NCBI GenBank assembly: GCA_002897715.1
Contig: BDUA01000047.1
Location: 1 to 46,409, forward strand
DNA from: a bacterium BMS3Abin01
GTDB taxonomy: Bacteria > Actinomycetota > Thermoleophilia > BMS3ABIN01
Direction of reading: 5' to 3'
Length of the DNA stretch: 46,409 nt
In this document: positions 893 to 11,210 of the stretch, one piece after another
Layout of the letters: every line of letters begins with the position of its first letter
Numbering within the stretch: position 1 is the stretch's first letter
The notes under the pieces: model-generated
What the model was told of the DNA's origin: nothing
What the model saw: the letters and a program-made list of their open reading frames with translations, nothing else
The model's database searches: none
Made by a program: the position numbers and the translations under genes

Positions 893-1918
893 TCAGACGG
901 CGGCGGCCATTTCGTCGACGGCCCCGGCGAGCTCTGAGCCGTCGCGTCCCATGTACAGGCGGTAACTTTTCACCGTCTGCACCAGTTCGGCAAGGATAGC
1001 GAAGTTCTCCTTGCTGGTCCGGGGATCCATGAATAGAAAAGCGTAAAGAATCAGTTCCGCCAACGCTTCGGTGGGGTTAACCTGCTCGTAGCGGGTTTTA
1101 CCGTCCTCGGCGATGACCGGGAACACCAGCAGCCGGGCCGGTGAAGACTCCACCACAGCATTAGGCCCGATCTCATTGAGATTAACCCGTGCTTTCGGCT
1201 GCCAACGATCCTCCGTCAGGTTCCGCGCCAAAGCCAGCTGAGGATAGAGGTCGACCGTCTCGTCACAGACATCCACTTCTTCCGGAAAGAAGAGCAACTC
1301 CGTCCCGGACTCACCGCGCCGGACAAAGACGGTATCGTCGCCCAACAGCTTGTACCCGTTCCTCAGGAGATGTAATGAAAGCGTCGACTTGCCGCAGTTG
1401 CTCTTGCCGGGGAACAGGATGCCCATCCCGTCACGCTCAAGCCCGGCGGCATGGACCGGAAAAACACCGCGCTCCTTGAGCATCTGCGCCCAGATGGGGA
1501 AGAAGATCACATGAGCGATCGACCAGGAGCAGGCGGTTATGGCCTCGTCGACAAAAGCTACAGCCAGCCCCCCCTCGGGGTCGGCAATAACAGAACCGCC
1601 CCCCGGCACCTCCTGATAGCGGAGCTGGCCCTCGCTCCGGTATCGAAGTACCTGCCAGTCATACAGGAGTTCCCCTCTTCCCTTATGGTCACCCGGTCCG
1701 TATTCCGCGCCGGGCTCTTTGGTCAACAGGTAGAACTCGATATCCGGGCTGTCTCCCGGCAGGTCCCGGAAAGACCGGAGGAAGTCCTGGATAGCCAGGG
1801 CCAGCAGATGGTTATCGGCATATACCCTTGTTTCCAGGCCATGGACACTGTAGGTGGCAGCATTCAACCTGGCGCCGTCAAGGCGCTGCACGATCCCTTT
1901 ACCCAGACTGTTCGACAT
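893..1918 (-). CDS. HPr kinase-like P-loop protein (HprK-related kinase)
   Basis: This protein of about 341 residues has the C-terminal core of the HPr kinase/phosphorylase family. VHAA is followed by the Walker A loop GKSNCGKST (residues 171-179 from the chosen start) and then LLGDDTVF, the usual order in HprK-related kinases. The N-terminal 150 residues are not the HprK receptor domain, and no HPr gene is visible. An ATG six codons upstream (1936) is in frame, but AAGGGA lies at good spacing only before 1918. The gene follows the Gly-rich lipoprotein gene and precedes a secreted rhodanese-like gene. Relatives of this fold occur in RiPP clusters, where some phosphorylate a precursor peptide. 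The substrate here is unknown; the 44-residue peptide at 3962-4096 or the neighbouring lipoprotein are candidates by inference only. Confidence 0.7.
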   Translation of the reverse strand: MSNSLGKGIVQRLDGARLNAATYSVHGLETRVYADNHLLALAIQDFLRSFRDLPGDSPDIEFYLLTKEPGAEYGPGDHKGRGELLYDWQVLRYRSEGQLRYQEVPGGGSVIADPEGGLAVAFVDEAITACSWSIAHVIFFPIWAQMLKERGVFPVHAAGLERDGMGILFPGKSNCGKSTLSLHLLRNGYKLLGDDTVFVRRGESGTELLFFPEEVDVCDETVDLYPQLALARNLTEDRWQPKARVNLNEIGPNAVVESSPARLLVFPVIAEDGKTRYEQVNPTEALAELILYAFLFMDPRTSKENFAILAELVQTVKSYRLYMGRDGSELAGAVDEMAAAV

Positions 1919-1957
1919 CTGTTCCCTTATCCCCATTTTCGACAGAGACCCCGGCGT

Positions 1958-2509
1958 TTAAGGCGCCGGTGGCACTTCTATCTGTATCTCACCCCAGCCG
2001 CCGCCACCGCTGTTGCCGCCGGTGCCGCCGCCACTATTGCCGCCGGAGCCGGTACTTGTCTGGCCCGAATCTCCGGATGTGCCTCCACCCTGGTCGGCGG
2101 TGACATTCTCCTTGGTTTCCACTGTCGGCAGAATAGTTTCCAGCTCGGCCTCCTGCCGATCACCGTAGTCGGTCCTGATCGAGTTACATACCCTGTTTGC
2201 TGCGTCTTCGTCCGCATAGCGGAATGTCATGTCGGCCATACACTCATCCCAGGTGTAATCAACCATAACGTCTTCCTGATTCACCCCGTTCGTCGACGCT
2301 CCACCCGCTGAACCAACATCGGCGACACTCCCCGTGCCGCCCGTGGTCCCCGTCTCATCCAGCTGCGAGCCTATAGTCCCTTCTTCCTTAGTGCTGTCTC
2401 CGCATCCGCCTGCCAAGAGAGCCACTGCCATTAACAGAACCATAACCCCGGCTATTGCCATCCATTGCCTTCCCCATGGCCCGCTACCGAGAGAGCTTAC
2501 AGCTTTCAT
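1958..2509 (-). CDS. Secreted Gly-rich protein, possible lipoprotein, with VPPAP tail
   Basis: This 183-residue protein is not recognised as a known family. Residues 15-36 form a hydrophobic export signal ending in a weak lipobox (LAGGC), so it may be a lipoprotein. Residues 37-80 are Ser/Thr/Gly-rich linker. Residues 80-135 form a small acidic domain with two Cys (DECMADM and RVCNS). Residues 138-175 are Gly/Ser repeats, and the last residues are GWGEIQIEVPPAP. That tail resembles the end of the 44-residue peptide at 3962-4096 (W, then V-P-P-rich). The AAGGAG site is 9-10 nt before the ATG. The gene is 39 nt upstream of the HprK-like gene, most likely in one operon. Confidence 0.6.
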   Translation of the reverse strand: MKAVSSLGSGPWGRQWMAIAGVMVLLMAVALLAGGCGDSTKEEGTIGSQLDETGTTGGTGSVADVGSAGGASTNGVNQEDVMVDYTWDECMADMTFRYADEDAANRVCNSIRTDYGDRQEAELETILPTVETKENVTADQGGGTSGDSGQTSTGSGGNSGGGTGGNSGGGGWGEIQIEVPPAP

Positions 2510-3037: not shown

Positions 3038-3096
3038 ACTGAAAGGAAATGCTGGCAGGGGTACTCCCTGAGTTAACAACACCCTTATTTGAGATG

Positions 3097-3870
3097 ATGA
3101 AACTAGCGATCACCGGCAAGGGCGGCGTGGGCAAGACCACCGTCGCCGGAACGATGGCCCGGATACTTGCGGCCCGGGGGAACCGGGTCTATGCCGTGGA
3201 TGCGGACCCGGATGCCAACCTTGCCACCGCGGTGGGCCTTGATCCCGGAGCGGCCCGGTCCGTACGCCCCATAGCCGATATGGCTCATCTGGTGGAAGAG
3301 CGGACCGGTGCGGCGCCCGGCAGCCAGGCGCCGGTGTTCAGGATGAACCCCCGGGTCGACGACATCCCCGCAGAGCTGTCCGTGGAAGCCCACGGTGTGC
3401 ACCTGCTCCGGCTGGGCACGGTGAAGAAGGGCGGCGGCGGATGTATCTGTCCGGAATCGGCCCTGTTGAGGTCGCTGCTTTCGCACCTGATGCTCTATGA
3501 GGGCGACGCGGTCATCGTCGATATGGAGGCCGGCATCGAACACCTGGGGCGTGCCACCGCCAGAGGCGTGGACGCCATGCTGGTGGTGGTGGAGCCGGGA
3601 CGACGCAGCGTGCGTACAGCCGAAGCCATCAGCAAACTGGCAGGCGATATCGGCATATCGAAGCTCAGGCTGGTGGTCAATAAAGTCACCGGGGCGGATG
3701 ATGATTTCTGCAGCCGGCTTGCCGGCTCCTTCGATGTCCTGGGGTGCCTGCCTTTCAGCGAAGATGTCCGCCAGGCCGACCTTCAGGAACAGGCCCCTTA
3801 CGATACCGCGCCCCTCTTCCGGGAACAGATGGAAGGTATCCTGGATCGTCTGATCGATTCCCTGCGATAA
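3097..3870 (+). CDS. cooC: CooC-type nickel-insertion ATPase for CO dehydrogenase
   Basis: This is a MinD-type P-loop ATPase of about 257 residues. It begins KLAITGKGGVGKTT, the deviant Walker A at the extreme N-terminus that is usual for CooC, and continues with DADPDANLA. A CxC pair (GGCICPE, Cys116/Cys118) matches the metal-binding pair of CooC, which loads nickel into carbon monoxide dehydrogenase. IVDMEAG is the Walker B-like segment. In-frame ATGs occur at 3049, 3094 and 3097. 3097 fits the family N-terminus, but 3049 has the clearer AAAGGA site, though very close. The gene stands alone, with no CODH gene in the window. The CooT and nickel transporter genes at 28.7-31.9 kb serve the same chemistry. 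Confidence 0.85.
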   Translation: MKLAITGKGGVGKTTVAGTMARILAARGNRVYAVDADPDANLATAVGLDPGAARSVRPIADMAHLVEERTGAAPGSQAPVFRMNPRVDDIPAELSVEAHGVHLLRLGTVKKGGGGCICPESALLRSLLSHLMLYEGDAVIVDMEAGIEHLGRATARGVDAMLVVVEPGRRSVRTAEAISKLAGDIGISKLRLVVNKVTGADDDFCSRLAGSFDVLGCLPFSEDVRQADLQEQAPYDTAPLFREQMEGILDRLIDSLR

Positions 3871-3900: not shown

Positions 3901-3930
3901 GGAGGGCGGCCCCTGCAGGGGCCGCCCTCC
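3901..3930. terminator. 30-bp perfect palindrome, probable bidirectional terminator
   Basis: A 13-bp GC stem (GGAGGGCGGCCCC and its complement) with a TGCA loop lies between convergent cooC and the 44-residue peptide gene. There is no T-run on either side. Its sequence resembles the hairpins at 6173-6200 and 17572-17601. Confidence 0.6.
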
Positions 3931-3961
3931 GGTTATCAGCCTTACCGCTTGCCGCGGGCCG

Positions 3962-4096
3962 TTAAGCCGGCGGCGGCGGAACCGTTACGCTGCACTGCCA
4001 GTTAGGACACTCGAAGGTTATCTCCTTCAAGTTCTCCTTCTTAACCAGCTCAGGCTTGGCGTAGGGTTCCCGGTGGTCACTCTTGCTAGTGGCCAT
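3962..4096 (-). CDS. 44-residue RiPP-precursor-like peptide (YxxPxL leader, CPNWQC segment)
   Basis: The ATG at 4096-4094 is preceded by a strong site (GAAAGGAGAACG), and the frame ends at TAA 3964-3962 after 44 residues. The first part is charged and contains YAKPELVKKENLKEIT (residues 12-27). This matches the Y-x-x-P-x-L...L-x-x-x-T leader pattern that RRE/PqqD-type proteins recognise in lasso and related RiPP precursors. The second part has FECPNWQC (28-35), then SVTV and a terminal PPPPA. A canonical lasso core would need a Gly-like first residue and an Asp/Glu at position 7-9; neither is present, so another modification of Cys30, Trp33 and Cys35 is more likely if it is a RiPP. The gene is 65 nt downstream of the beta-propeller gene. 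No maturase is visible nearby. Too short for routine gene calls. Confidence 0.65.
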   Translation of the reverse strand: MATSKSDHREPYAKPELVKKENLKEITFECPNWQCSVTVPPPPA

Positions 4097-4161
4097 ATCG
4101 TTCTCCTTTCACCTTATCTCACTTATCTCCAGCTTGCCTTTGCGTCCTGTTACCTGACGGA

Positions 4162-5679
4162 TCAGTAGCTGTAGATAGTGGCGCCGCTCTGAGCGGTCGC
4201 GTGTACAGTGGTGCTGAACGCGATAACACCGGATGGTATATGGTACTCGACGGTGTAAGCAGCGGATCCAGCGGTAGCGATGTTCTGCGGCAGACTCGGC
4301 GTGTTCACCGAGGCTACCCCAGCGGAGTTGACCGTACCGGTGATGGTGACGTCCTTGGCGTCCGGACCGGCGTTGGCAATGCCGAAGTCAACCGAGAGGA
4401 TGCCGTTTGTGTAGTCAGCCATGGTGGCCCAGTAGACCGTGCCCATGCTGAGACTCAGGGCAGGCTGGCCGGGATTCCAGGCCGTCTTCTCCATCACGTA
4501 GATACCACACGCGGCTTCGTTCAGACCCTGTACGGAACCCTTGACCACCGGAGCGAGTGGACTGGTGATATCCAGCAGCATCACCGTGGCGCCACCCGGA
4601 TACGGGTCGGGTACCTGACGGACCATGACGTACAGGAGGTTGTCCTCACCCGGGACGATCTCCACGCCGTGGGGCTCGGCGGTTACCGAGTTGGTCAGCA
4701 ACGTCATGTCGATGGTGCCGACGGTGGCGTTGGTAGTCATGTCGACCACTTCCAGTACGCCACTGGTACCACCGGTGACGAACAGCAGGTCGCGGCTCTT
4801 GGCGGCGGTGTTCTGGTGGATTACCGCGCCCGGCAGGGCGGGGTTCTCACCGGTAGCCGTCTTGGTGCCGGCCCAGTCGATGGTCACCGAGTTGGCAGCA
4901 TCCCACATCAGGGAAGCGTAGCCGACGGTGCCGGCCGCGTTCCAGGATATTCCGCAGGTGCTGGACTCGCCGTCGCCATCGAAGTCAGTGGAGATATGGT
5001 TGGTGGCGGTGCCAGTCGAGAGACTGTTCTCCTGCCATCCACCCTGGGTCACCGGCAGCGTTCCCGGAGGCAGCGGTCCGCCGGCAGCGGGACTATACGC
5101 TGCTTCCAGACTGGCGGCCACACCGGGGCCGGCGGCCATGTCGGCGGCCACCAGGTTGTCGGAGGTGGTGTCGTTCACGTCATACTCCAGGCCGCAGTAG
5201 CCGACCAGTGAGCCGGTCATGGGTATCCTGCGGATCTCGGTGCCTGTAGCGATATCTACCTGATACAGGTCGCTGGAGTTGGCGTCGCCGGACAGGGCGC
5301 CCACAGCGTAGATGCTGGCCCTGTCATTGGACGGTACCACACCGTGGATCTCCCAGTGCATACCCAGGCCCGGAAGCAGGCCGTCGGGGGCACGGGGTAC
5401 CGGGACATAATCGACGATGTTCATGGTGCCTACATCGATGATGGCGACATTGCTGTCGTCACCGTTAGCTATATACAGCAGCTGGTCGCTGACGCCCAGA
5501 CTGGCAGACGGAGCCTGATCGCATCCGCTACCATACGCGCCACCACAACCATAGCCACCGTAAGCGGCATCGGCCGCGCCGGACATGCTGCCCGTCGCGA
5601 TGGCCAATGCCAGGATAAGAACAAGCGGCACAGCCAGCATAAGAAACTGCCACTTGTTTTCACTTATGGCAACCTTCAT
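4162..5679 (-). CDS. Secreted YVTN-type beta-propeller protein
   Basis: This 505-residue protein has an N-terminal signal or anchor (hydrophobic 13-38), then a Gly/Tyr/Cys-rich linker (YGGYGCGGAYGSGC). The rest is repeated blades of the YVTN/surface-layer propeller type: LLYIANGDDSNVAIIDV, YQVDIATG, LEVVDMTTNATVGTIDM and MLLDITSPLAP. The last 90 residues look like an Ig-like beta domain. EIHGV and EPHGVEI are reminiscent of metal- or heme-adjacent His segments in such propellers. Substrate or binding partner is unknown. The stop of an upstream basic reading frame overlaps the ATG (ATGA), and AGAGGGTGAAGG provides a site. It is probably co-transcribed with the 44-residue peptide gene downstream, which suggests a working link. 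Confidence 0.7.
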   Translation of the reverse strand: MKVAISENKWQFLMLAVPLVLILALAIATGSMSGAADAAYGGYGCGGAYGSGCDQAPSASLGVSDQLLYIANGDDSNVAIIDVGTMNIVDYVPVPRAPDGLLPGLGMHWEIHGVVPSNDRASIYAVGALSGDANSSDLYQVDIATGTEIRRIPMTGSLVGYCGLEYDVNDTTSDNLVAADMAAGPGVAASLEAAYSPAAGGPLPPGTLPVTQGGWQENSLSTGTATNHISTDFDGDGESSTCGISWNAAGTVGYASLMWDAANSVTIDWAGTKTATGENPALPGAVIHQNTAAKSRDLLFVTGGTSGVLEVVDMTTNATVGTIDMTLLTNSVTAEPHGVEIVPGEDNLLYVMVRQVPDPYPGGATVMLLDITSPLAPVVKGSVQGLNEAACGIYVMEKTAWNPGQPALSLSMGTVYWATMADYTNGILSVDFGIANAGPDAKDVTITGTVNSAGVASVNTPSLPQNIATAGSAAYTVEYHIPSGVIAFSTTVHATAQSGATIYSY

Positions 5680-6240: not shown

Positions 6241-7251
6241 TTAATTTGCCACCGGGGCTCCCGGTTTATTGGTGGTGGCCGTTGCCGTTTCCGGCGGCGA
6301 CGGCTCATAGCCTTCCGCATATTTAATATCGTAGGTTTCCCAGAGTTCGGCGGAATAGTCCTTCCAGCGCTGGGCGAACTTCTGGTTGCGCATGTAGAAG
6401 GACAGTTCGTCCTTGAGATCATCCAGGGTCTTGTTGGAAGGTGGAGTGATTATTTCCACTTTTATGACATACCAGCTTGGACCGGACTGGAACGGCTGGG
6501 ATATTTCGTCCCGGCCCAGAGAAAAAGCCACCTGGCCTACGTCGGCGGGCAGCTGCTCCTTCGATACCAGGCCGACCAGCCCGCCTTTCGACGCCGTCGC
6601 TCCGTCCCTGGATATCTCGCCGGCGACGTCGGCGAATTCCTCGCCGGCCGCCACTCTCGCCAACGCGGCCTGGGCCGCCGCCTCGTCCGCCACCACAATC
6701 TGGCGGACCTGGCGTTTCTCCGGATAGATATACTTGCCCTTGTTCTCCTCATAGAAGGCCGCGACCTCCTCGTCGGTTATGGTGGTCTCCTCGTGGACGG
6801 AGTCCAGCAGCTTCTGATGCCTGAGGTCACGCTCGATCTCGGCGCGCAGGTCATCCACGCTGATACCCTGTTCGGCGAAGGCCTCCTCCATCTTCTCCAC
6901 GTTGCCGAAATATTTGTCCTCGATATATATGGTCAGGGATTCCTCGATCTCATCAGAGGTGACGACGATACCCCGCTTCTCGGCCTCCTGCTTCTCCATC
7001 TCCTCGCTCACCAGCTGTTTGGTGACATTGTTGCGGTAATCGATGAATTCCTGGCTCTCCCGGTCCTCAGGAACCTCGGTGGGGAACAGTACCGCGGTTA
7101 TGTCGATGCGGTGCTGCACATCATCCTTGGTAATTATGACTCCCTCCACCGACGCGGCTGCGTCATCGGGAAGCCCGCACCCGGCCGATGTCAGCATCAA
7201 CACCACCCCGGCGATAGTGACCGCCGCAAGAATCAACATCTTTTTCAACAT
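6241..7251 (-). CDS. SurA/PrsA-like parvulin foldase lipoprotein
   Basis: This 336-residue lipoprotein has a signal peptide ending in a lipobox-like TSAGC (Cys25). Residues 35-150 form a SurA N-terminal-like helical chaperone domain. Residues 160-270 are a PpiC/parvulin peptidyl-prolyl isomerase domain with RQVRQIVVADEAAA and the typical GGLVGLV...AFSLGRDEISQPFQSGPSWYVIKV run split over the domain. It should help exported proteins fold outside the membrane, like PrsA. Two terminators follow, so it is probably transcribed alone. Confidence 0.85.
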   Translation of the reverse strand: MLKKMLILAAVTIAGVVLMLTSAGCGLPDDAAASVEGVIITKDDVQHRIDITAVLFPTEVPEDRESQEFIDYRNNVTKQLVSEEMEKQEAEKRGIVVTSDEIEESLTIYIEDKYFGNVEKMEEAFAEQGISVDDLRAEIERDLRHQKLLDSVHEETTITDEEVAAFYEENKGKYIYPEKRQVRQIVVADEAAAQAALARVAAGEEFADVAGEISRDGATASKGGLVGLVSKEQLPADVGQVAFSLGRDEISQPFQSGPSWYVIKVEIITPPSNKTLDDLKDELSFYMRNQKFAQRWKDYSAELWETYDIKYAEGYEPSPPETATATTNKPGAPVAN

Positions 7252-8285: not shown

Positions 8286-9260
8286 GTGTATTTCCCCTCC
8301 TACAGAATGCGGCGCCTGAGAACCACGGAACAGGTCCGTGACCTGGTGAGCGAGACCGACCTGTCAACGGACCGCCTGATTTACCCTTTATTCGTCTCCC
8401 ACGGCAAGGATGTGCGTTCGGAGATCAAGTCGATGCCGGGCTGCTATCAGCTCTCCATCTCCAACCTGGTCGCCGAAGCCTTGGAGGTCTTCGGCCTGGG
8501 CATCCCGGCAGTGCTGCTGTTCGGCATCCCGGCAGTGAAGGACGATGCCGGCTCGGGCGCTTACGACGATGAGGGCATCATCCAGATGGCGGTGGCGGCT
8601 CTCAAGGAGAGCCTGCCGGAGCTGCTGGTAATTACCGATGTCTGCCTCTGCGAATACACCAGTCACGGACATTGCGGTATCATCAAGGACGGTTACGTCG
8701 ACAACGACATAACCCTGGAGATGCTTACGCGCATGGCCGTATCCCACGCCGAGGCCGGCGCCGATATCGTCGCCCCCTCGGACATGATGGACGGTCGCGT
8801 GGCCGCCATCAGGAGCGGGCTGGACGGCGAGGGGTTCATCAACACACCTATCATGTCCTATGCGGCCAAGTTCGCCTCGGCTTTCTATGGACCCTTCCGC
8901 GAGGCGGCGGAGTCCTCCCCCGAATTCGGTGACCGCCGTTCTTATCAGATGGACCACCGCAACAGCAATGAAGCCGTGCGTGAGGTGCTGCTGGACCTGG
9001 AGGAAGGCGCCGACATCATCATGGTCAAACCCGCTCTTCCCTACCTGGATATCATCTACCGCATCAAGCAGGAAACCCGCTTTCCCCTGGCGGCCTATAG
9101 TGTCAGCGGGGAGTACTCGATGCTGAAGGCGGCGGCGGCGCAGGGCTGGCTCGACGAGAAACGCGTGGTGCTGGAGTCACTTATGGCTATCCGCCGCGCC
9201 GGCGCCGACATGATTATCACCTATCACGCCAGGGAAGCAGCCCGATGGCTGAAGGAGTAG
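8286..9260 (+). CDS. hemB: Porphobilinogen synthase (delta-aminolevulinate dehydratase)
   Basis: This 324-residue enzyme joins two 5-aminolevulinates into porphobilinogen in heme and corrinoid synthesis. The zinc-site motif DVCLCEYTSHGHCG (Cys120, Cys122, Cys130) marks the Zn-dependent type. The two active-site lysines lie in SYAAKFASAFYGPF (Lys195) and IIMVKPALPYLD (Lys248). The GTG start at 8286 has AAAGGAG about 8 nt upstream. It is the first gene of a co-directional run with hemL 6 nt downstream, and an AT-rich ATAATAT box lies near 8228. Confidence 0.96.
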   Translation: MYFPSYRMRRLRTTEQVRDLVSETDLSTDRLIYPLFVSHGKDVRSEIKSMPGCYQLSISNLVAEALEVFGLGIPAVLLFGIPAVKDDAGSGAYDDEGIIQMAVAALKESLPELLVITDVCLCEYTSHGHCGIIKDGYVDNDITLEMLTRMAVSHAEAGADIVAPSDMMDGRVAAIRSGLDGEGFINTPIMSYAAKFASAFYGPFREAAESSPEFGDRRSYQMDHRNSNEAVREVLLDLEEGADIIMVKPALPYLDIIYRIKQETRFPLAAYSVSGEYSMLKAAAAQGWLDEKRVVLESLMAIRRAGADMIITYHAREAARWLKE

Positions 9261-9266
9261 CGGCTT

Positions 9267-10550
9267 ATGGATGTCTCTGACTCCCGGAGACTTTACAGCC
9301 GGGCCCTCGAACTCCTGCCGGGCGGCGTCAACAGCCCCGTGCGGGCCATGCGCTCCGTCGGCCTCGACCCCATCTTCATGGCACGGGGCGAGGGCAGCCG
9401 CCTGTACGATGTGGATGGCAATGAATACATCGATTACGTGGGCTCCTGGGGCCCGCTGATCCTGGGCCACTCCCACCCGGCGGTACGCGACGCGCTGGAG
9501 AAGACGCTGAGGGACGGCACCAGTTTCGGCGCGCCCAGCCCTCTGGAGGTGGAGCTGGCGGAGAGGATCGTGGGCGCGGTCCCCTCCATCGAGATGATAC
9601 GCATGACCAATTCCGGCACCGAAGCCACCATGAGCGCCCTGAGGGTGGCCCGCGGTTATACCGGGCGCGAGAAGATCATCAAGTTCATCGGCTGTTACCA
9701 CGGCGCCGTGGACAGCCTGCTGGTACAGGCAGGCTCCGGGGTGGCCACCCTCTCCCTGCCGGACAGCCCCGGCGTGACCGCCGGTACCTCCGCTGACACC
9801 ATCCTGGCGGACTACAACGACCTTGGCGGCGTCAGGGGGATAATGAGCCGGGAAGGGGAGCAGGTGGCGGCTATCATCGTCGAGCCCGTCGCCGGCAACA
9901 TGGGAACGGTACCGCCCGCTGAGGGCTTCCTGGAAGGCCTGCGGTCCCTGGCCGGCGAGTACGGCTCGGTCCTCATATTCGACGAAGTGATGTGCGGGTT
10001 TCGCGTGGCTTTCGGCGGTGCCCAGGAGCGATACGGCATCACCGCCGATATGACCTGCCTGGGCAAGATAATCGGCGGCGGCCTGCCGGTAGGCGCTTTC
10101 GGCGGCGGCAGGGACATCATGGAGACGGTGGCGCCGGCGGGAGACACTTACCAGGCGGGAACCCTCTCCGGCAACCCCCTGGCCATGGCGGCGGGGGTCA
10201 GCACCCTCGACCAGCTGTCCAGGCCCGGTACCTATGACCGGCTGGAGGAGAAGTCCGCGCGCCTGGCGTCCCGGATGGAGGCGATCGTGCGTGCTTCCGG
10301 CTATCCTCTCAGTCTTAACCGTGTCGGCTCCATGATGACGCTCTTTTTCAGCGACGAGCCCGTGACCGACTTCTCCTCGGCCAAAGCCTGCGATACCGAC
10401 CTCTACGCCGATTATTTCAAGCATATGCTCGACCAGGGCATCTACCTGGCGCCGTCACAGTTCGAAGCGGCCTTCGTCTCCCTGGCCCACAGCGACGATG
10501 ACCTGGACCGTACCGCCGAGGCGGCGGCATCTTTCCTCCTGAACCCCTGA
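9267..10550 (+). CDS. hemL: Glutamate-1-semialdehyde 2,1-aminomutase
   Basis: This 427-residue class III PLP aminotransferase converts glutamate-1-semialdehyde to 5-aminolevulinate, the substrate of hemB next door. Family marks are [12 protein letters not shown] at the N-terminus, [29 protein letters not shown] and the PLP-lysine segment [17 protein letters not shown]. Length is normal for the family. It starts 6 nt after hemB and ends 21 nt before rex. The C5 pathway partner hemA is not in this window. Confidence 0.96.
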
Positions 10551-10571
10551 GATCAGAAGGAAACGGTTGCC

Positions 10572-11210
10572 ATGAGTCCGTCCAGGCGAAACGATTCCAT
10601 TCCGGAAGCCACCGTACCGCGCCTTTCCCGCTACCTGCGCAAACTGCAGGAGATGCAGGAGCGGGGGAAGAAGACCGTCTCCTCGCGACAGCTGGCCGAG
10701 GCCGTAGGCGCCAACCCGGCCCAGATACGTAAAGATCTTTCCTATTTCGGCGAGTTCGGTACCAGGGGCGTAGGTTACGATGTAAAAACCCTGGTGGAAG
10801 AGTTGCGCCAGCAGCTGGGACTCAACCGTTCCTGGAACGTTATCATCATCGGCTCGGGCAAGCTGGGCACCGCCCTGGCTCTCTACCGCGGTTTCGAGAA
10901 ACAGGGATTCAACCTGGTGGGCATGTTCGATTCCAACCCGGACGTCGTCGGCACCGACCGCGGCGCCGCGCCCGTTCTGTCCAGCGACCGGCTGGAACAG
11001 TTCATCGCCGACAACGACATCCAGATCGCCATGGTCACCACCCCCGCTGACGCCGCCCAGGATGTGATCGACCGCGTAGTGGCGGCCGGGGTGCCGGCGG
11101 TGCTCAATTTCGCGCCGATCGGCGCCACGGCGGACCAGCCGGTCATCCTCAGGCAGGTGGACCTTTCCACGGAACTGATGACCCTGTCCTTCTACCTGGA
11201 CAAATCATGA
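10572..11210 (+). CDS. rex: Redox-sensing transcriptional repressor Rex
   Basis: This 212-residue protein has an N-terminal winged helix (VSSRQLAEAVGANPAQIRKD, then LSYFGEFGTRGVGY) and a Rossmann NAD(H) domain (IIIGSGKLGTAL, then GMFDSNPDVVG). Rex binds DNA when NADH/NAD+ is low and releases it when NADH rises. An AGAAGGAAACG site precedes the ATG. The stop overlaps the next gene by 4 nt (ATGA), so the two are translationally coupled. Sitting between heme and quinone genes suggests control of respiratory cofactors; I saw no obvious Rex operator upstream of the run. Confidence 0.95.
   Translation: MSPSRRNDSIPEATVPRLSRYLRKLQEMQERGKKTVSSRQLAEAVGANPAQIRKDLSYFGEFGTRGVGYDVKTLVEELRQQLGLNRSWNVIIIGSGKLGTALALYRGFEKQGFNLVGMFDSNPDVVGTDRGAAPVLSSDRLEQFIADNDIQIAMVTTPADAAQDVIDRVVAAGVPAVLNFAPIGATADQPVILRQVDLSTELMTLSFYLDKS

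Follow-up and report, generated by a model that had tools for sequence, protein, structure and literature searches.

Organisation of the locus

The window (the whole stretch of DNA analysed, 46,409 nucleotides from contig BDUA01000047.1 of bacterium BMS3Abin01) encodes near its left end a 44-residue peptide, the ATG of which is preceded at a distance of 7 bases by AAAGGAG (Table 1). The same-strand gene of an exported protein of 505 aa stops 65 bp upstream of the peptide gene. Hairpins resembling the one found downstream of the peptide gene also occur downstream of two paralogues (loci L002 and L003). The leader of the peptide contains the motif YAKPEL, and its Tyr12 and Thr27 are 15 residues apart. 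The search of Pfam and NCBIfam matched the peptide to no family.

Table 1. Features of the window and of the putative maturation locus of the same genome (G000)
Feature	Position	Strand	Evidence and remarks
Second exported protein, N-terminal part, cut by contig end	1..750	-	Complete orthologues end in the C-terminal domain (CTD), then a second peptide copy
HprK-like kinase	893..1936	-	Motifs VHAAG, GKSNCGKS, DD; orthologues 63-75% identical, same place, 10 other loci
Lipoprotein	1958..2509	-	Lipobox AGGC; C-terminus WGEIQIEVPPAP resembles peptide tail
CooC/MinD-like ATPase	3085..3870	+	Convergent with peptide gene; in 8 other loci the orthologue lies near the propeller, on the opposite strand
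G+C-rich hairpin, probable terminator	3901..3932		Sequence; between convergent peptide and CooC-like genes
Putative peptide precursor gene, 44 aa, MATSKSDHREPYAKPELVKKENLKEITFECPNWQCSVTVPPPPA	3962..4096	-	ATG start at 4096; frame, paralogues, orthologues, conservation
Leader 1-28 and predicted core 29-44, ECPNWQCSVTVPPPPA	within 3962..4096	-	Y12=-17, P15=-14, L17=-12, N22=-7, T27=-2
Shine-Dalgarno region, GAAAGGAGAACGAT ahead of ATG	4097..4110	-	Sequence
Exported beta-propeller with C-terminal Ig-like domain (CTD ~4165-4461)	4162..5679	-	Sequence comparison, structure prediction
B2-type transglutaminase-fold peptidase	G000:C14 (L051) 8874-9317		Trio gene
PqqD/RRE	G000:C14 (L051) 9271-9588		Trio gene
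HprK-like kinase	G000:C14 (L051) 9585-10673		Trio gene

The order CTD protein, peptide, lipoprotein, HprK-like kinase, second exported CTD protein, second peptide is kept in most of ten other loci. At the end of contig C49 of the same genome there is a CTD fragment with a peptide gene after it (C49:73514-73639), and, as far as can be judged from the sequence, this end is probably the continuation of the leftmost gene of the window together with its second peptide. In all 11 syntenic copies of the lipoprotein the C-terminus reads W(x)nIxIxVPxxP, which can be compared with the peptide tail CSVxVPxxP; the lipoprotein is possibly a shared binding partner, anchor or decoy. The CooC/MinD-like ATPase probably lies outside the peptide system.

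The HprK-like kinase of the window is located 2 kb from the peptide gene. The middle Gly of its GxxGxGKS motif is replaced by Asn, likewise in locus L084, while Walker A and DD are intact. The first-pass annotation, made from the window alone, had stated that no RRE, protease, cyclase or radical SAM maturase is adjacent to the peptide gene. This is correct for the RRE, the peptidase and the cyclase, but the kinase was overlooked, and candidate RRE and B2 genes are present in trans.

The peptide family and its conservation

A search of the own genome (1.5 Mb, 86% complete) revealed eight copies of the peptide. The seven besides that of the window are placed on six contigs and are 41-92% identical to it; the core is unchanged in six of them and divergent in one (C55), with TF followed by SSPELMCSCGMGGGHGG. 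The peptide was found in all 19 sampled genomes of the family, with 4-12 copies per genome. An alignment-based scan of genome contigs gave 54 peptide loci, all from MAGs labelled by their depositors as Thermoleophilia, Gaiellales or Actinomycetes, with one labelled "uncultured bacterium". A model built from both peptide classes described below matched none of the 380 other genomes of the class, and in the rest of the phylum there were weak matches in five genomes of other families, four of these in the leader only. By sequence comparison, the scattered copies belong to a previously unnamed peptide family that appears restricted to one family of uncultured actinobacteria.

Selection acts on the 44-aa frame, which is a genuine gene. 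Among 63 distinct DNA sequences pN/pS was 0.27, leader and core alike, and P-14, N-7, T-2, C2, C7, S8, V11 and P12 (positions counted from the predicted cleavage site) never vary despite codon changes. The first-pass annotation had proposed a small conserved peptide gene and had suggested following its Tyr, Pro, Leu, Thr, Cys and Trp positions through related genomes; homologues were indeed found and the positions have not drifted (Y 61/63, P 63/63, L 62/63, T 63/63, C2 63/63, W 61/63, C7 63/63).

Two classes of peptides can be distinguished. The core of class 1 has the consensus ECxxWxCSVxVPxxP. Class 2, detected by a profile search in nearly all genomes examined, keeps the leader Y, P, L, N and T, and its core consists of W-x-C-S and a tail rich in Asp, His, Ser and Gly (for example, TF followed by NHSSWTCSIGFDDDDDHGHDD and TA followed by EWQCSVDVHSHQ). 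Unlike the leader and T-2, C2 is not conserved in class 2. Some peptides have F, L or C in place of W. In 20 diverse members P15, N22, T27, C35 and S36 are invariant. Since it is invariant over such diverse members, the C-S dyad, mostly after W-x, is the common core element, to which class 1 adds the second Cys and the VxVPPPPA tail. In several genomes, genes for Rieske or FAD-dependent oxidoreductases and for universal stress proteins lie near class-2 peptides whose tails are rich in Asp and His (L219, L220, L224, L227, L233).

Exported partner proteins

The beta-propeller encoded next to the peptide had been regarded in the first-pass annotation as its partner. The pairing with an exported protein is real, but the constant feature is the C-terminal Ig-like (CARDB/DUF11-like) domain, and the propeller is only one of several partners. 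A CTD protein is encoded upstream on the same strand, within 350 bp, for 44 of the 60 class-1 peptides with enough flanking sequence, against about 1% expected. The CTD is about 100 aa long, carries the pattern ...VYWASYADYT...TNGV...KYNVPxGVxSF...YTYP and has weak similarity to CARDB/DUF11 in Pfam; its predicted fold is Ig-like. The parts N-terminal to it vary and include propellers, a multihaem cytochrome adjoining a molybdopterin oxidoreductase, and proteins of unknown fold. A stand-alone form of 153 aa is encoded beside a split-Soret cytochrome.

The model of the window protein comprises a propeller and an Ig domain (pLDDT 76). Its best fold match is an archaeal S-layer YVTN propeller with a PKD domain (PDB 1l0q, 15% identity), which is not a peptide partner. 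An internally duplicated propeller partner of 818 aa is encoded in two loci (L009 7496-9952 and L089 4331-6787), and upstream of it lies a diverged PqqD gene (L009 5797-6060, 87% identical in L089).

The CTD is commoner than the peptide in the genome of the window, where about five of 18 CTD proteins have a peptide and 13 do not, so the suggestion that every CTD protein has a peptide was rejected. About a quarter of the peptides have no CTD neighbour. The solo copies are syntenic too; one of them, for instance, is located opposite hemC-side genes in about ten loci. A solo peptide copy without a CTD partner has a conserved place after a helicase gene and a lysine-decarboxylase-like gene (L012, L101, L107, L108, L118, L120, L125, L133, L136).

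Candidate maturation genes in trans

Three consecutive genes encoding an HprK-like kinase, a PqqD/RRE protein and a B2-type peptidase were found on another contig of the same genome (Table 1). In 14 genomes this trio is intact and adjoins hemW, and in many of them a DUF2079 membrane protein gene comes next. PqqD was found in 19/19 family genomes and B2 (PF13471) in 16/19, nearly always in single copy; B2 was undetected in three family genomes, two of which are less than 80% complete. RRE and B2 are placed at a contig end in G006, B2 is about 20 kb away from HprK-RRE in G010, and in G014 HprK-RRE is present and B2 was undetected. Among the other genomes of the class, 46 of 380 have PF13471.

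The trio B2 scores 45.7 bits with the lasso B2 model NF033537 (cut-off 33), and its catalytic residues, Cys and His, do not vary. The H, GxxGxGKS and DD motifs known from lasso-precursor kinases are retained in the kinases. The closest solved relative of the trio PqqD is TbiB1 (PDB 5v1u/5v1v, E 4.8e-9), the RRE of a lasso cluster that includes its precursor. No precursor-like frames were found around the trio in the loci scanned, and because no precursor adjoins it, the link between enzymes and substrate rests on the match of the leader and on co-occurrence within one clade. The association of trio and peptide across genomes is strong, but rests on that one clade, and its p-values do not allow for phylogeny. 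The trio locus is rich in glycosyltransferases, and the trio could serve another substrate.

A second cluster of the same genome (G000:C18, L052, 8194-12003) is LPP-like and includes two PqqD genes, an HprK/ScmC-like kinase, a radical SAM/SPASM protein and a SipW-like peptidase, and its peptide, MIMKKEYQAPSLKSVKINEPLAYACNVNNANSNSGTWSGVNLTSDINLICD, has 51 aa. If the cluster is of the LPP kind, it has an extra radical SAM. It was considered as the maturation locus but not retained, since it contains a precursor of its own (YQAPSLKSVKINEPLAYAC...) together with a SipW-like peptidase, whereas the trio of contig C14 recurs in the family. Tandem precursors ending in INEPLAYACTIYNAACSPPEGCNGTWSGCNLATNLHFNC, Cys-rich relatives of the C18 precursor, were noted near PqqD and HprK in another genome (L277, ~6289-6652, reverse strand, G005:C29).

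Comparison with known RRE-dependent RiPPs

Lasso precursors are recognised by their residues Tyr-17, Pro-14, Leu-12 and Thr-2 (PMC10368454). If cleavage after Phe28 is assumed, the peptide matches these positions exactly. The leader of RRE-dependent precursors also has the motif [Y/W]xxPx[L/V/I/A/F/Y] (PMC13381572), which is present in the peptide family. The YxxPxL leader with a Thr 15 residues after the Tyr, recognised in the first-pass annotation, is of the RRE/B2 type. The paeninodin/Bsf-type phosphorylated lasso peptides (PMC10368454) share with the system described here the four leader residues and the set of B1 (RRE), B2 and HprK-like kinase with the same motifs, but differ in having an Asp/Glu at core positions 7-9, a dedicated cyclase and a precursor inside the cluster.

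The LPPs are known linear phosphorylated RiPPs, the precursor leader of which reads YxxPxVLxHQxIxFETxxS, in which Thr and His stand 15 and 8 residues after Tyr (PMC13381572). The leader of the present family, YxKPxLVKHxNLKEIT, has Thr and His at the same distances, and in both cases a locus rich in glycosyltransferases contains a discrete RRE and an HprK-like kinase without a cyclase; because there is no cyclase, the product would be linear, as in LPPs. Unlike LPPs, which have an SpI-like leader peptidase, the trio includes a B2 cysteine peptidase, a SipW-like peptidase being encoded in the separate C18 cluster. No NTP transferase or MsbA-type exporter was found among the Pfam-scanned genes of the G007 trio locus, the other loci having been inspected by ORF list only. 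In LPPs the phosphorylated Ser is at core position 3, which is also the position targeted by the characterised kinases (BsfK, LppK), whereas position 3 is P, S or A in the conserved W-x-C-S core and the invariant Ser is at position 8. Finally, the precursors are unlinked to the enzymes, present in 4-12 copies and adjoin exported proteins.

Peptides from other families of the phylum (L269-L273) have a near-identical leader, YxKPELxEHENLxEVT, and differ in the core, T-[KR]-G-x(n) of 8-12 residues without W-x-C-S (e.g., YQKPELIEHENLNEVTKGVPNGNSNNVG). Their short, often tandem genes are next to radical SAM and glycan genes, and maturation enzymes are absent from those contigs.

The best reading of these comparisons is that the peptide system is new within RRE-dependent RiPPs and closest to LPPs and phosphorylated lasso peptides. 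The apparent differences from both concern the peptidase, the core and, most unusually, the scattering of the precursors away from the maturation genes. A literature search, thin in subscription journals, found no precedent for unlinked RiPP precursors.

Proposed maturation and alternative explanations

It is very likely that the gene encodes a RiPP precursor, and processing by B2 and the RRE in trans is likely too. Taken as a whole, the description of the gene product as the precursor of a small linear RiPP, matured in trans by the conserved HprK-RRE(PqqD)-B2 locus and phosphorylated, is probably correct. The RRE of the trio locus would bind all scattered precursors by their leaders, the HprK-like kinase would phosphorylate the invariant Ser8 of the C-S dyad, and the B2 cysteine peptidase would cleave after Phe28, freeing ECPNWQCSVTVPPPPA. 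After export, for which no exporter was identified, a C2-C7 disulfide would form. Ser8 was chosen because it is the sole invariant hydroxyl residue of the core and the HprK-like kinases of related pathways phosphorylate Ser; against it stands the position of their sites, at core residue 3, and its phosphorylation is about as likely as not.

Modification of Cys/Trp was suggested in the first-pass annotation, and it can be formulated as a radical-SAM RiPP in which a thioether, cyclophane or Cys-Trp crosslink involves W-x-C or the Cys pair, giving a redox-active or constrained product that might serve the exported cytochromes and propellers as a peptide cofactor. C7 is invariant and W nearly so in both classes, some partners are redox proteins (the multihaem cytochrome with the Mo-oxidoreductase and the split-Soret cytochrome), and in G000 (at a distance of about 6 kb) and five other genomes a radical SAM/SPASM gene is located near the trio. 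However, this gene is missing from at least three uncut 18-kb trio loci and has glycosyltransferase genes around it, its product falls far short of the cut-off in all peptide-maturase models, and the replacements of W by F, L or C also stand against a crosslink, which makes this explanation improbable. Ser phosphorylation is better supported and is the modification with the best support, because HprK is present in the trio and in the window, whereas the radical SAM gene is near the trio in only six genomes. An analogy with quinohaemoprotein amine dehydrogenase (CTQ), prompted by Cys/Trp beside a propeller and cytochromes, was considered; no radical SAM is reliably linked. A true lasso peptide with an unlinked cyclase is barely credible, despite the lasso-like leader and B1/B2/kinase set and the asparagine-synthetase homologues found in all family genomes. 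As the first-pass annotation had correctly noted, the core does not fit a lasso ring. At positions 7-9 it has Cys, Ser and Val (C7 and S8 invariant, V/I at 9 in class 1), with no Asp/Glu in any member inspected, and without an acceptor acid or a dedicated cyclase the peptide cannot be a canonical lasso peptide. The lasso cyclase model NF033535, run on the own-genome homologues only, gave 271 and 225 bits for the two full-length ones against a cut-off of 525; these fit an XrtA-type amidotransferase or asparagine synthase better, and no RRE is nearby.

The peptide might also be a small unprocessed metal-binding or regulatory protein with a Cys pair and, in class 2, acidic/His tails, its YxxPxL likeness being coincidental. 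The Asp- and His-rich tails and a weak match to the Ogr/Delta zinc finger (E 0.01) are in keeping with this, but the match, at 16.2 bits, is below the Pfam gathering cut-off of 26.3 and was rejected. Moreover, all four leader positions fit the B1/B2 rule and are conserved beyond the needs of a Cys pair, and class 2 has lost C2 while retaining the leader and T-2, so that such a protein is very improbable. Somewhat less improbable, although still unlikely, is a secreted signal, in which many loci would yield a single conserved mature peptide and different operons would thereby report to one receptor. The near-identical class-1 core produced from many loci in varied contexts and the conserved solo copies agree with it; on the other hand, the copies have no receptor or regulator as a recurrent neighbour, what they mostly adjoin is a surface protein and not a sensor, and several diverged cores exist within one genome.

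Returning to the linear, probably phosphorylated RiPP, a role at the cell surface, where the peptide would be an accessory or ligand common to the CTD proteins and produced alongside them, may be proposed tentatively, because most copies lie directly behind exported proteins with one common C-terminal Ig-like domain. Equally speculative is the wider picture in which one trans-acting RRE/kinase/B2 locus would mature many scattered W-x-C-S precursors, each co-expressed with a surface or redox protein, the mature (phospho)peptide being a shared part or cofactor of an extracellular protein set and not an antibiotic or signal.

Biological significance

RiPP discovery tools generally seek precursors beside maturation enzymes. 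The evidence obtained here points to precursors scattered from a single maturation locus, present in many copies per genome, found throughout the family and associated with surface and redox proteins. If this is true, it would mean a house-keeping role, not a role in warfare, for a lasso/LPP-type peptide pathway, and would add a class of linear B2-processed phosphopeptides. It would also provide a testable function for the orphan HprK-PqqD-B2 loci within polysaccharide regions.
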